Shown piece after piece: positions 57,546 to 63,840 of a stretch of DNA of 64,000 bases. Source of the DNA: Actinomadura madurae (lineage in GTDB: Bacteria > Actinomycetota > Actinomycetes > Streptosporangiales > Streptosporangiaceae); the NCBI RefSeq assembly GCF_900115095.1, contig NZ_FOVH01000026.1:1-64000 (forward strand), given 5' to 3'. The position numbers were made by a program, and so were the translations under genes. Positions within the stretch are counted from its first letter, which is position 1, and each line of letters starts with the position of its first letter. A model generated the notes under the pieces. That model was not told the DNA's origin. It saw nothing but the letters and a program-made list of their open reading frames with translations, and ran no database searches.

Positions 57546-58028
57546 TTGACCGCCGAGGATCAGCTGCGCGATCGGGTGCGGCGGCAGGCGCGGCAGCGCC
57601 GCAACGCCTGGGCGTCGCGTTGGGCGCTGGTAGCGGCCACGCTCGCCGCCATCGCCGCGGCGCCGGCGGCGTTCGGCTGGCCGGCCCGCGCCTGGCTGCT
57701 GCCGACGATTCTGCTGGCGATCGTCGCGCTGGTTGTGGCGTTCGGCGCACACTACGACCAAGTGGACCCCCGCATCGACGGCCCGTACGTGCCGTTGGCC
57801 CGCCAGGCGCACGCCGCGTTCTTGATGGGCGCGGCCGTCGGCGTGACGGTCGTGATGATCCTGCAGGTGTCCTCGTTGTGGGGGATGGCGATCGTCGTTC
57901 TGGTGGCGTTCGCCCGTCCGATGTGCACCGCTCTGGTCAAAGACAGCTCGGCCGGCAACGCCAAGACTCGCAGCCAGACCGCCCCCACTGGTGCGGGCCA
58001 CGCCGCCCGGGAAGGGGCACGATCGTGA
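57546..58028 (+). CDS. Integrative-element membrane protein
   Basis: A 160-residue protein: a charged N-terminal helix (R-D-R-V-R-R-Q-A-R-Q-R-R), then four hydrophobic segments in two pairs (about residues 23-65 and 82-120). It resembles small membrane proteins near replication genes of actinomycete integrative elements, possibly spread proteins. The start is unsure: a TTG at 57546, with the frame open to 57480, where it meets the monooxygenase fragment; the true N-terminus may have been lost. It overlaps the primase gene by four bases (GTGA). Confidence 0.6.
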   Translation: MTAEDQLRDRVRRQARQRRNAWASRWALVAATLAAIAAAPAAFGWPARAWLLPTILLAIVALVVAFGAHYDQVDPRIDGPYVPLARQAHAAFLMGAAVGVTVVMILQVSSLWGMAIVVLVAFARPMCTALVKDSSAGNAKTRSQTAPTGAGHAAREGARS

Positions 58029-59256
58029 CCTACTCCGTCACTCACGTCGCCGCCGCCGACGACCTCGATGACCTCGCCGACGATGTGGCGGACCTGCGTC
58101 GCAGGCTGGACCAGCTGAACAGCACCGTCAGCCAGGAACATGCCGAAAGGCTGTATGAGCTGGAGAATGACCACCGGCTGGAGGAACTGCGCGGCCAGCT
58201 CGAACGGCTGGACGAGCGCGCCGACGACCACGACGACCAGCCCGCCGCGCTGCGTGCCGACCTGCGGCGCTTGAGCGGGCACCTGCGCTGGCTGGAGCAC
58301 CATGTGCGCACCGAACGCGGCCTGGAGCCGATCGATCTGGACCAGGCGCCCACCACGTGGACCGACCTGGCCCGGCGCGTACGCGCCGGTGACACCGCCC
58401 GCGCATCGTTGCTGACCGAGCAGAACCGCCGGTACCTGCGCGCTACCGATCCGGCGCGTATTCGCGCGTGCTGGTCCCGTGCTCAGTACAACGTCGGTAT
58501 TGCCTGCGGCCCCTCCGGTCTCGTGGTCATCGACCTGGACGTTCCCAAGCCCGGTGAGCACCCGCCGCCCGAGTGGGACATGGCCGGTGTCAACAACGGA
58601 GCGGACGCGTTCGCCGTGCTGTGCGGGCGGCAGGGCGAAGCGTTCCCGTTCGAGACGTTCACCGTGCGGACTCGGCGAGGTGGATGGCAACTGTACTTCC
58701 AAGCGCCGACCGAGGTTCGGTTGACCAACACGGCGGGCAAGTCGCCGCGTGCTCTGGGCTGGAAGATCGACACCCGCGCGCATGGTGGATACGTCGTCGG
58801 CCCTGGTAGCTACGTCGATCTGCCGGACGGAGCCGGATCGTACGAGGTCGTTCACAGCGTTGCCCCGATCCCGCTACCCGAGTGGCTCACCGGCCTACTC
58901 AAACCCGCCCCCGTCCCCACTCCCGCCTTGAGTGCCTGCCTTCAGTCCGCGCAAGTCGGTGACCTTGACGCTTACGCACAAGCGGCACTCAAGGCGGAAG
59001 CGGATCGGGTGGCGAGCGCTGAGGCGGTGGACGCAATCGGGCGCTGAATAAGGCCGCGTACAACCTCGGCCGGATCATCGCCGCCGGCGTCCTGCCGGAA
59101 GACATCGCGACGGGCGCTCTGTACGACGCCGCGAGCGTCCATCTCGGACCGTCGCGAGATGACGTCCGACCCAGCGAAGCGCAGGCCACGATCCGGTGCG
59201 CCATCGAAGCGGGCAAGCGGAACCCGCGCGACATCACCAGGAGGGGCGCAGCATGA
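58025..59256 (+). pseudogene. Bifunctional DNA primase/polymerase (prim-pol), one frameshift
   Basis: Replication protein of an actinomycete integrative element. An N-terminal coiled region (L-R-R-R-L-D-Q-L-N ... L-E-E-L-R) precedes the prim-pol core: N-V-G-I-A-C-G-P-S-G-L-V-V-I-D-L-D (metal-binding D-x-D) and G-W-K-I-D-T-R-A-H-G-G-Y-V-V-G-P-G-S. At 59021-59025 one G seems missing from a G-run: the first frame stops at 59047, while the family C-terminus (R-N-R-A-L-N-K-A-A-Y-N-L-G-R) continues in the next frame to TGA 59254-59256, which overlaps the following ATG. If the base is a sequencing error the gene is intact (about 410 residues). Confidence 0.8.
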
Positions 59257-60478
59257 CCGACGCGACTCACAGCGACCACGGCGCGACCACTGCGGCCGAC
59301 AGGGAGGGCGTGGCCGCGCTCAATGCAGCTCACGACTTCATCACTCGGTTCTGCGTGCTGCCCAGTCAGGCGGCATATAACGCCATGGCGCTGTGGGCCG
59401 CGCATGCCCACATCATCGACGCGTTTGACTCGACGCCGCGTTTGGCGTTCCTCTCGCCTGAGCCCGGATCGGGCAAGACGCGAGCGCTCGAAATCCTCGC
59501 GCTGCTGGTGCCCTTCCCCATGCATGCCGTCAACGCAGCGCCGCCGCGCTCTACCGATCGGTGGGTAACCGCGAGCGCCGGCCGACCGTGCTCTTTGACG
59601 AGATAGACACCGTGTTCGGCCCGAAAGCCAAGGACAACGAGGATCTACGGGGACTGCTGAACGCCGGACACCGGCGCGCCGGCGTCGCCTACCGCTGTGT
59701 AGGCGAAGGAACGAATCAAGGCGTACAGGAGTTTCCGGCGTTCGCTGCCGTGGCGCTCGCGGGACTCGGCAACCTGCCGGACACGATCCTTACGAGGTCC
59801 GTCATCGTTCGCATGCGCCGCCGTGCGCCGCACGAACGTGTGGAGCCGTACCGAGCACGCGTTCACGAGCCGGAAGGCTGGAAGATTCGCGCGATGCTCG
59901 CCGATTGGGTCGCCACTCAAGCCGAGCGGCTCGGCGACGCATGGCCCGAAATGCCGCCCGGAATCACCGACCGCCCGGCGGACGTCTGGGAACCGCTCTT
60001 GGCCATCGCCGACGCTGCCGGGGGAGACTGGCCGGAACGCGCTCGCGAGGCATGCGTGTATCTCGTAAAGCAGGGTGCCGAGCGCGGTGTGAGTCTCGGA
60101 ATTCGGCTCTTGATGGACCTGCACCGAATATTCGCCGGCGCTCGCGCTCTCTTCACGGAAAAAGTTCTTGAGCGGCTCCACAGCATCGAAGATGCCCCCT
60201 GGGCTGAATTGAAAGGCGTACCCCTCGACAGTCGTGGGCTTTCTCGGCTGCTCTCGCAGTACGACGTTTCGCCGGTCAAGGTGAAAATCGACGGCCGTTC
60301 GCTTATGGGGCATCGCTCCGATCACCTCGCCGATGCGTGGGCGCGGTACCTCCCTGCCACCTCGGCTGAGGAACCGGAACCTACGGAACCTCCGGAACCC
60401 GTCCAGCTCACGACCCATGAACGGGGTTCCGGCGGGCGCGGCGGTTCCGGAACCGGGGGAACCGAGCGAGCGCCGTAG
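59253..60478 (+). pseudogene. DUF3631 replication protein, one frameshift
   Basis: Helicase/primase-associated protein of integrative elements. The first part (to about 59545) has the P-loop P-E-P-G-S-G-K-T-R; then one base is missing in a CCGCC context (59540-59552) and the protein goes on in the next frame with A-A-L-Y-R-S-V, the Walker B L-F-D-E-I-D, and the DUF3631 domain through L-S-R-L-L-S-Q-Y-D. The C-terminal tail (E-E-P-E-P-T-E-P-P-E-P) is encoded by GGAACC repeats. Read straight, two pieces of 118 and about 305 residues result. Confidence 0.8.
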
Positions 60479-60679: not shown

Positions 60680-60868
60680 GTGGCACGCAAAGACGAATTG
60701 CTCACGATCTCCGAGGTGATTGCCGAACTCGGCGTCCCGCGCGCGACGTTCTACCGGTGGCGCCAGCTCGGCAAGGCGCCTCGCAGCATCAAATACCCGA
60801 ACGGGGACGTTCGGATACGCCGGTCCGTCCTTGAGCGCTGGCTCTGCCAGCTTGAGGAGGCCGCGTGA
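60680..60868 (+). CDS. xis: Excisionase / MerR-type helix-turn-helix protein
   Basis: A 62-residue DNA-binding protein: L-T-I-S-E-V-I-A-E-L-G-V-P-R-A-T-F-Y-R-W-R is a winged-helix recognition unit as in AlpA/Xis excisionases, followed by R-I-R-R-S-V-L-E-R-W-L. It directs excision by the integrase encoded directly downstream; the two overlap by GTGA. GTG start after AAGGAGG. Confidence 0.88.
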   Translation: MARKDELLTISEVIAELGVPRATFYRWRQLGKAPRSIKYPNGDVRIRRSVLERWLCQLEEAA

Positions 60869-62289
60869 GCACGGGGGAGGAATCGCGCCCTGGGCGGCGA
60901 GGGATTTCCGGAAGTAAGGGGCGGACGCGCGACGTGCGGCGCCCGTGGAAAATCGGGAAAGCCAAGAGCAAGACACGCCCGCACATGGTCCGATGGGTCG
61001 TCGCCGGCGAGGTCTGCACCGTCACGTTCGCCACGTTCGCGCTCGCGGATGGGTTCCGCTCGGACCTCATTCAGGCCATGACGCGCGGCGAGGAATTCGA
61101 CGCGGCCACCGGCCTGCCGACGTCCATGCTCAAGGTTGCGACTGCGCGCACCTGGTTCGAGTTCTGCAAGGCGTACGTCGGCGTTCGGTGGGACGGCGCC
61201 GCGGCCAAGACCCGCGACTCCCTCACGGACAGCCTCGCGACGGCGACCCTTGCCATGGTGGAGGACGGGCGCGACCGGCCGAGTTACCAGGCACTACGGA
61301 GAGCATTTCTCTGGGCCGTCACTCCGGCCAACGAGGGCGCCGACGTGCCGGACGAGTTAACCAGCGGCTTGAGGTGGCTCCGAGAGCGCTCGTTGCCGCT
61401 CAAGGCGCTCGCCGACCCGCACGTGGTCCGCCAGGTAGAGAAGCGGCTCACACTCACGCTCACGGGCAAGCGCGTGGCGACGGACACCTACAACCGGTGT
61501 CGGCGAGGGCTCAATACCGCCGTGGTGTACGCCATGGAACTCGGCGAACCCTCCGACAACCCGCTCAAGGCCGCGGGACGGACACATGAGGCCCGGCAGG
61601 GCGAGGTAGATCCTCGCGTCGTCATCACGCACGCGCAGGCCCGCGACCTCCTTACGGCGCTGAGCTACGTCGGCTCGTGGGGACGGGGCCGAGGTCGCCG
61701 GCTCGTGGCGTTTTTCGCGACGCTCTACTACGCCGGTCTACGGCCGGCGGAGTGCGTGGCGCTGCGAGAGAACGACTGCTACCTACCAGAGGCTGGATGG
61801 GGCCGTCTGACGCTCACTCAGACGCTCCCAGTCACCTCCAAGAGGTGGACGGACGACGGCGAGCGCCACGAGCGGCGAGGGCTAAAACAGCGGTCCCTCA
61901 AGGCTGCCCGCATTGTGCCGATCCCGCCGTCCCTCGTGACCATCCTCAAGGCGCACATCGAGGAGTTCGGCATGGCCGAGGACGGGCGCCTGTTCCGCAA
62001 CGAGCGCGGCGGCATCCTCGGGGCCTCAACCTACTCGCGCGCATGGGAGGAAGCCCGCCAACTCGCGTTCCCGCCCGCCCAGGTCGAATCGCCGCTTGCC
62101 GGGCGCCCGTACGACCTGCGTCACGCTGCCCTGAGCACGTGGCTCAACGCTGGCGTCTCGCCGGCGGACGTGGCCAAGCGTGCGGGCAACTCGGTAGAAG
62201 TGCTGCTCAAGCGCTACGCCGGTTGCCTGGACGGCCAAGAGGACAACATCAACCGGTGCATCGAACGGAGGCTTGAGGACAACGAATGA
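60865..62289 (+). CDS. int: Tyrosine-family site-specific integrase
   Basis: A 474-residue integrase of actinomycete integrative elements. The basic N-terminus is followed by a SAM-like core-binding domain (about 60-200) and the catalytic domain: first Arg in Y-A-G-L-R-P-A-E, Y-D-L-R-H-A-A-L (Tyr in place of the first His, common in this group), G-N-S-V-E-V-L-L (Asn for His) and nucleophilic Tyr in K-R-Y-A-G-C. It appears intact. Its attachment site is probably the 3' part of tRNA-Arg at 63769-63840, with the MrcB-like cargo gene lying between. Confidence 0.92.
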   Translation: MSTGEESRPGRRGISGSKGRTRDVRRPWKIGKAKSKTRPHMVRWVVAGEVCTVTFATFALADGFRSDLIQAMTRGEEFDAATGLPTSMLKVATARTWFEFCKAYVGVRWDGAAAKTRDSLTDSLATATLAMVEDGRDRPSYQALRRAFLWAVTPANEGADVPDELTSGLRWLRERSLPLKALADPHVVRQVEKRLTLTLTGKRVATDTYNRCRRGLNTAVVYAMELGEPSDNPLKAAGRTHEARQGEVDPRVVITHAQARDLLTALSYVGSWGRGRGRRLVAFFATLYYAGLRPAECVALRENDCYLPEAGWGRLTLTQTLPVTSKRWTDDGERHERRGLKQRSLKAARIVPIPPSLVTILKAHIEEFGMAEDGRLFRNERGGILGASTYSRAWEEARQLAFPPAQVESPLAGRPYDLRHAALSTWLNAGVSPADVAKRAGNSVEVLLKRYAGCLDGQEDNINRCIERRLEDNE

Positions 62290-62363: not shown

Positions 62364-63485
62364 TCACAGCCCTGTCTTGTAGACGTAGGAGACGACGGTT
62401 AGATCTTCTTCCTCGATGCGCCAAGGGCTTGTGCAGCAGAGAATCCCTCCGCTGGCTACTGGAGGTGTTGACGCCCGGTCCAGGTCGATCGAATGAACAA
62501 CGACGAGGGCGTTGGCCGGGGCCAGCTTGCGCTGAGTCTCGACTTCAGGGCGAGTGAGAACGACCTGCGCCCCTGTTGACGTGGTGCCCTTCACCTCGAC
62601 GTGAAGCCGTTGGTCGTCCCTCCTCAGGAAGAGGTCGTAGGACTCTTTCGCTCCGACGTCCTTCACCGACCAACCTTGATCTCGGAAGTACTTTGTCGCC
62701 ATGTTGACGCTGTGCTGCTCCAAGATGCGGCGTTCGTCAGCATTGAGGCGGATCCCCTGCCCTTTGGAACGGACTTTCCTGCGACGGGCCGCTCTGGCTG
62801 ACGCCTCTTCGGCCTCGATGACCTCAGGTGGAGTGTCTCCAGGAACGTACGAAGCCCTCTTCTCGCCCCTGTAGATCTCCCCAAGGAGCCTGGACATGTA
62901 GAGAAGGTCTTCGATGAGGGTGGCTTCGCTCGGCAGCGAGCCACGGCGGTACTCAATCGCCGTAACGTTGCCGGCTTCGTACCCCGGCCCTAGCTGAGAT
63001 TTGAGGGCGTCGAGCTCGATGGAGTCATGGAGGTCGTCACGTTCGGCTAGGAGAGCTGCCACGAGAGGGCGCGCCCAAGCGACCCGTGCCTTGATCTCCG
63101 TGAGCTTCCTGGGAGCGAAATCCTTCCCCGTCCATGTGGTCGTGCCCTGGTTGAGTTACAGGTAGACCCGGTCACCGCTGGCGCTGAAGAGGTAGACGAC
63201 GTACCAACCTGTCGTGGCACGTGGTGCGGCGCTGCGCGAGAAGACGCGCACCCATGGAATTTCCGTCTTGAGGCCCGTCCCGTCCCTGCCTTCAACGCCG
63301 AGGTCAGAGACTGTCGTGCCCGTCTCCGCTGCGATCGTCTCGACGTGGTTGCGGATCCGCTCGGGAATCTCCGTTCGGATGATCACGCCTCGTCGCTGCA
63401 TCTCAGGCGTGTTCTTGGCCGACCATGCGCGCTGAAGGTCAAAGGTCTCTGCGAAGAGATCATCCACGCTCGGCAGCGTAACCAA
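62364..63485 (-). pseudogene. MrcB-like restriction protein (DUF3578 + DUF3883) with in-frame stop
   Basis: A reading frame of 373 codons interrupted by one TAA at 63156-63158. The first part (starting TTG 63485 or GTG 63467) is an MrcB_N/DUF3578 domain: I-P-E-R-I-R-N-H, I-P-W-V-R-V-F, G-W-Y-V-V-Y-L-F, V-Y-L then the stop, then L-N-Q-G-T in the same frame, where relatives have Ser. The second part is a DUF3883 nuclease-like domain with E-S-Y-D-L-F-L-R and H-V-E-V-K-G-T-T, resembling a PD-(D/E)xK core (D...E-x-K). Such proteins sense or cut modified foreign DNA. Carried as cargo between integrase and attachment site. A GTG at 63062 could start the nuclease half alone. Confidence 0.8.
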
Positions 63486-63768
63486 GACCTATGACAAAGG
63501 CGGTAAATCACCACACGTTGCTTTGGGGTGGATGTGCGTGGTTTTGCCGGTCATGTGGACTCGTAGTGGAGGAGCTTGCAAAGGCTCTGCCGCGCAAGGG
63601 TGGCACGAGAGAGCGGTGGGGAGCGAGAGACTCTCGTGTCTCTCTCGTGGGTCTCTCGCGGACACCGCTAGACAGTGAGAACGGGCGGGACTCAGTTGGA
63701 CTGAGGTCCCGCCCGGTTCTTTGGTGTCTGTGCTGGTCAGCGAGGTGATTTCGCTGGTCTCAGAGAGG
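63486..63768. other. Element end: repeats next to tRNA-Arg
   Basis: No gene. Holds a GCGAGAGAC (63623-63631)/GTCTCTCGC (63651-63659) inverted repeat with several CTCTCGTG direct copies, and a large hairpin at 63679-63719. The layout suits the arm-site region of a phage-type attachment site. Confidence 0.5.
63679..63719. terminator. Large hairpin downstream of tRNA-Arg
   Basis: GAACGGGCGGGACTCAGT pairs with ACTGAGGTCCCGCCCGGTTC, allowing two bulged bases, with a 3-base loop. On the plus strand it is followed by TTCTTTGG. It may terminate transcription from either side. Confidence 0.65.
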
Positions 63769-63840
63769 TGCCCCCTGCAGGATTCGAACCTGCGCACACG
63801 GCTCCGGAGGCCGTTGCTCTATCCCCTGAGCTAAGGGGGC
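63769..63840 (-). tRNA. tRNA-Arg (anticodon CCG)
   Basis: Folds into a full cloverleaf on the minus strand: acceptor GCCCCCT/AGGGGGC, D arm GCTC...GAGC, anticodon stem ACGGC/GCCGT with loop CTCCGGA (anticodon CCG at 63805-63807), T arm GCAGG-TTCGAAT-CCTGC. 72 bases with discriminator A; only CC, not CCA, is encoded next. Its 3' end faces the integrase and is the probable attachment site of the element. Confidence 0.95.

Follow-up and report, generated by a model that had tools for sequence, protein, structure and literature searches.

The interrupted gene and the element around it

The window is the whole stretch of 64,000 nucleotides of DNA analysed here from the soil actinobacterium Actinomadura madurae, taken from a draft assembly of 54 contigs that is 97.65% complete with 1.99% contamination. 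The gene under study lies at 62364..63485 and is present as one copy in the 10.25-Mb host genome. The initial annotation had given no strand; we placed the gene on the minus strand, where a frame of 374 codons runs from 63485 to 62364, with a TTG start and a closing TAG. Within this frame there is a single stop, the TAA at 63156..63158 (minus strand, 63158-63156), which is codon 110. Pfam finds both domains of the earlier reading in this one frame, namely MrcB_N (DUF3578, PF12102), a modified-base reader at residues 29-199 (62889..63401, minus), and NOV_C (DUF3883, PF13020) at residues 256-333 (62487..62720, minus), the latter scoring 37.8 bits against a curated cut-off of 22.1. The frame and its lone TAA were thus correctly described, whereas the placing of the stop between the two domains has to be corrected: the MrcB_N profile matches on both sides of it, with profile positions 14-89 ahead of the stop and 91-176 past it (E 2.6e-16 and 1.2e-09), so that the stop interrupts the reader halfway along. 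No domain other than MrcB_N and NOV_C exceeds its Pfam cut-off; an AAA+ GTPase domain was not found at that level in the 373 residues, nor does the protein contain an McrC domain. A nonsense codon at this place would stop translation once 109 residues have been made. Neither part is expected to fold as an active enzyme, and the window copy has presumably lost its activity.

One side of the gene is taken up by an integrase and the other by a tRNA gene. On the plus strand we found a PrimPol-type replication protein (57620..59047, domain at residues 274-422, with the true start probably further in), a DUF3631 protein of the element (59561..60478), a small HTH_17 protein that is a probable excisionase (60680..60868), and a tyrosine integrase of 474 aa (60865..62289; Phage_integrase, PF00589). 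The tRNA-Arg (CCG) gene, the integration target, stands 282 bp beyond the gene on the minus strand (63767..63840). Its 3' part (63767..63812) is the likely attachment core and is present a second time next to this tRNA in several other Actinomadura genomes; 63542..63766 is a probable attachment arm, judged from its similarity to DNA that adjoins additional tRNA-Arg 3' copies in the genome G039. These features bear out the mobile-element setting first proposed, and the gene would be cargo of a PrimPol element that targets tRNA-Arg(CCG), carried in the interval from its integrase to its attachment site.

Every one of the 65 genomes of the genus has the tRNA-Arg(CCG) gene and the genes behind it. 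At six of the ten sites compared (G005, G059, G056, G021, G002, G039) the tRNA 3' end (~45-50 bp) is present in additional copies, and related integrases, ~43-50% identical, adjoin all six, which together mark tRNA-Arg(CCG) as an integration hotspot. A second (left) attachment site was not found in the window or the genome, where the tRNA 3' core occurs once; the far end of the element has therefore been lost or is unassembled, the window beginning at the start of its contig, and the element itself may have decayed too. Two other genomes of the genus, G017 and G034, carry the gene open, with just C-terminal scraps of an integrase adjoining it. About 1.2 kb past the intact gene in G034 there is an HNH nuclease gene (L015:10293-11267, minus; Pfam E 7.9e-10) that also matches the PADLOC mREase_IV model (E 2.4e-19), giving this tRNA site two genes of modification-dependent type. 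The slot between integrase and tRNA-Arg(CCG) that the gene occupies in the window holds in G059 a 385-aa protein (L071:319-1476, minus) with a sub-threshold AbiJ_NTD3 match alone and no PADLOC match, which may be another cargo defence gene.

Relatives of the gene and the age of the stop

Within the genus the gene was found in three of 65 genomes: that of the window, G017 (Actinomadura rayongensis DSM 102126, NZ_WUTW01000001.1, a 100% match for the same query), which is the nearest relative with a protein 96% identical, and G034 (70%). Two wider searches, with E at most 1e-30, detected it in 11 genomes out of 345 for the order and in 11 out of a class-wide sample of 394; four hit genomes were common to both, leaving 19 loci in 18 genomes. 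For comparison we aligned the window protein with 12 full-length relatives, leaving out G497, which has the same translated sequence as G386. In these 13 rows D284, E297, V298 and K299 are invariant, and codon 110 is serine in all 12 relatives. The serine named in the initial annotation is thus confirmed; as to its claim that one substitution separates this serine from the stop, the G017 codon differs from TAA at two of three positions, so that the immediate parent codon is not visible. That all relatives share the stop, named there as the finding that would overturn a recent loss, applies to none of the 12.

Judged by translation or listed open frames, the 19 loci comprise 13 intact genes, five broken ones and one, G191, with a different reader. 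Besides the window, the broken loci are G198 with two frame changes, which may be sequencing errors in a genome just 84% complete; the second G505 copy with one frame change, whose DNA is 98% identical to the intact G478 gene; G193, which has lost the front half and carries a frame change; and G127, which has lost the front.

Comparison with G017 allows the stop to be placed in time. The two genes align without gaps (1122 vs 1122 bases) and with no other stop or indel, and they differ at 64 of the 1122 bases, 50 of them third positions, as expected from the earlier statement that the rest of the gene is conserved. Nei-Gojobori estimates are dS 0.188 and dN 0.019, a ratio of 0.10, with 15.5 nonsynonymous differences along both branches, whereas an unselected window branch by itself should have gathered about 78 such changes (836 sites times half of dS). 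The loss accordingly occupies a small last part of the divergence between the two genes, unless it is a sequencing error. Per 100 bases, identity is 92-99% within 62401-63500; it is 78-91% where the two share the integrase end and the attachment arm, and 54-77% from position 64301 onwards. With one stop, a dN/dS of 0.10 and open relatives, the proposal of a recent inactivation by a single event is upheld, and by this sequence comparison the inactivation is recent.

Two other explanations of the TAA have to be weighed. The genome may encode an intact gene and the TAA be a base-calling artefact, which would fit a defect confined to one codon of a 54-contig draft in a gene that otherwise has no decay, with no indel and a dN/dS of 0.10. 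However, because the codon differs from that of G017 at two positions, a single miscall requires a codon that was already different and yet open, and substitution errors that yield a clean stop are rare, the draft having the completeness and low contamination given above; we consider an artefact improbable. Alternatively, two polypeptides, or an occasional full-length product, might cooperate or be regulated through the stop, as suggested by the wholly preserved frame past it and by the earlier proposal that a GTG could restart the nuclease half. This GTG (63060..63062, minus) is a plain valine codon retained in the intact G017 copy, without Shine-Dalgarno-like pairing upstream (anti-Shine-Dalgarno pairing of -2.4 kcal/mol, where 500 random sites have a stronger median of -3.8), and a protein begun at this codon would have only half of the reader. 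The best later in-frame start, codon 262, reaches -5.6 kcal/mol, short of the -5.9 that marks the 25th percentile at random sites, and is already inside NOV_C, past the start of that domain. In addition, the model puts the stop within strand 106-113 of the reader, and codon 110 is open in all 12 relatives of the alignment. With the stop inside the reader, a cut β-strand and weak start pairing, we rejected a split gene with internal restart, and any product made through the stop is highly improbable. Recent inactivation is the best reading: the initial observation was real and needed one correction of place, while its split-gene alternative fails. The window gene amounts to an ordinary pseudogene from a family that has been little studied.

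Predicted function of the intact protein

To look at the intact protein we used an AlphaFold2 model of the A. rayongensis copy, made from a three-row alignment with two viral-contig relatives and of middling confidence (mean pLDDT 69.5). Residues 5-213 of the model match the DNA-binding domain of E. coli McrB (3ssc_A; Z 9.8, 144 aligned residues, 3.7 Å) and also the McrB complexes with 5hmC, 5fC and N4mC (6gcd, 6gce, 6gcf). Residues 248-373 match PD-(D/E)XK nucleases, with Hjc at Z 10.3 (1gef_E; 100 aligned, 2.5 Å) and SPARDA at Z 10.7 (9qcc_M), the nuclease parts of Hjc and SPARDA lying at Z 9-11. The D-(n)-E-x-K pattern is the motif of the PD-(D/E)XK nuclease superfamily, and its residues are present on the nuclease fold as D284, E297 and K299, which are invariant in the 13 rows. 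These fold assignments rest on a second structural aligner, whose own notes call Z values under 8 common; Foldseek against the PDB gave no match below E 0.001 with the same model, and a profile search for sequence relatives in the PDB returned none of note (best E 0.09). The reader half also matches the DUF1054-type structures 2a8e (Z 11.1) and 3mqz (Z 9.8), above or level with McrB. We take 2a8e to be a DUF1054-type protein, and from the modelled fold DUF1054 may share the reader fold.

Published accounts of the two domains agree with such roles. The N-terminal ADAM/DUF3578 domain of McrB is described in one paper as methylcytosine-binding (PMC11090510), and another lists the DUF3578 domain of McrB-N as holding the modified base outside the helix (PMC3874153). 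For DUF3883, one text speaks of "a novel REase domain", fused there to an SNF2 helicase (PMC3710099), and another presumes it to be a restriction endonuclease group (PMC10609329). The McrB-type DUF3578 domain of an intact protein would bind DNA with a modified cytosine, flipping the base out, and the C-terminal NOV_C, of PD-(D/E)XK type, would cut the DNA, with no GTPase and no McrC domain in the chain. The McrB-like reader fold and the nuclease-like NOV_C fold, taken together with the cited domain roles, favour a modification-dependent endonuclease in one chain. We therefore read the window gene, with a probability of roughly three in four, as a recently dead copy of a gene for a single-chain modification-dependent restriction endonuclease. 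Intact relatives would presumably recognise and cleave modified DNA and restrict phages or plasmids; the label of defence gene draws on domain content, modelled fold and neighbours.

Several known systems resemble this arrangement in part. The DUF3578 reader family, seen in the window gene by Pfam and in the modelled fold of the intact relative, is shared with the type IV system McrBC, but the window protein is without the AAA+ GTPase and the McrC domain and carries a nuclease-like NOV_C in the same chain. Full membership in McrBC was considered and rejected, as no GTPase domain exceeds the Pfam cut-off in the protein. With other NOV_C systems it has PF13020 in common, but here NOV_C stands behind a modified-base reader and not with a helicase or methyltransferase partner. 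The order of reader first and PD-(D/E)XK nuclease second is that of MspJI/AspBHI-type enzymes, in which the N-terminal domain of AspBHI is given as SRA-like and DNA-binding (PMC4499157); the reader of the window protein is instead DUF3578 and its nuclease part NOV_C. The surrounding element resembles actinomycete PrimPol/excisionase/integrase elements in its PrimPol, DUF3631, small HTH and tyrosine integrase genes beside a tRNA, and differs from actinomycete integrative elements in that neither a transfer gene nor a second attachment site was identified for it.

Searches of collected models gave no name for the family: neither PADLOC-DB 2.0.0 (best E 0.017-0.049, HmaA) nor NCBIfam has a matching model, and a literature search, in which subscription journals were thinly covered, found no description of a DUF3578-DUF3883 protein or its activity. 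The family is a predicted variant of modification-dependent restriction enzymes with a clear link to tRNA-targeting elements. As a reader-plus-nuclease of about 370 residues without an energy-dependent motor, it would be a test of whether the GTPase machine is needed for cutting guided by an McrB reader.

tRNA genes, exchanged readers and the role of the gene

A tRNA gene lies within 2.5 kb of 12 of the 19 loci, where 1.2 would be expected from each genome's own tRNA count across the 18 actinobacterial genomes (Poisson-binomial P about 5e-11, for a radius picked after seeing the data and with neither that choice nor shared descent taken into account). Other radii gave six of 19 loci at 1 kb (0.63 expected) and 14 of 19 at 5 kb (2.13 expected). 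The insertion is inherited in common by G200, G191 and G193, and the tRNA call in G228 is unusually long at 95 bases. The targets called by ARAGORN are Arg-CCG, Arg-ACG, Pro-GGG, Pro-CGG, Tyr-GTA and Ala-CGC, and the locus in G205, counted as a miss, has two copies of a tRNA-Pro 3' end near the gene.

The locus with the other reader lies at tRNA-Pro(CGG). The G191 protein there (L025:733-1983, plus) consists of RE_AspBHI_N (E 1.4e-50) followed by NOV_C, and its NOV_C is 75-78% identical to those of the MrcB_N-NOV_C proteins of G205, G200 and G228. At and beyond the shared tRNA-Pro(CGG), the chromosomes of G191 and G200 are 81-85% identical in DNA over 12317-16474 of L044. From the shared flank and the similar NOV_C it follows that at this one locus the nuclease module is the same, with modified-base readers of two kinds in front of it. 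Its close relatives at tRNA-Pro(CGG) having MrcB_N-NOV_C, G191 presents a natural exchange of the reader domain.

The same observations could be read as a function of the element and not of host defence, with the intact gene excluding rivals at the same tRNA or controlling its own transfer by cutting foreign-modified DNA. The position of the gene between integrase and attachment site, the 12 loci with a tRNA within 2.5 kb and the rivals with related integrases that occupy the same tRNA-Arg in other species are all consistent with such a role. Against this, the gene is open in G017 and G034 beside a mere scrap of integrase, and selection acted on it over the divergence between the window and G017; hosts thus appear to keep the gene without the element, and we regard a purely element-serving gene as unlikely. 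Beyond the restriction endonuclease that we prefer for the window gene, a wider picture can be put forward tentatively. The slot from integrase to attachment site in actinobacterial tRNA-targeting elements might house small modular nucleases in which NOV_C is kept and readers are exchanged, mostly of McrB type and of AspBHI type in G191; these would outlast the decay of the element and be silenced time and again through frameshifts and point mutations, with the window as a very early case. Through the link to tRNA genes, the exchange of readers and the paired intact and broken copies, the gain and loss of such enzymes could be traced in nature.

Among mobile replicons, 21 plasmid records matched, none spanning 80% of the query, and phage records gave two weak matches to the reader part only. 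An intact MrcB_N-NOV_C gene stands on an IMG/VR viral contig (L054:2981-5101, plus), adjoining a DUF2971 gene, and intact copies are also found in the very small actinobacterial genomes G386, G497 and G681 (1.4-1.8 Mb).
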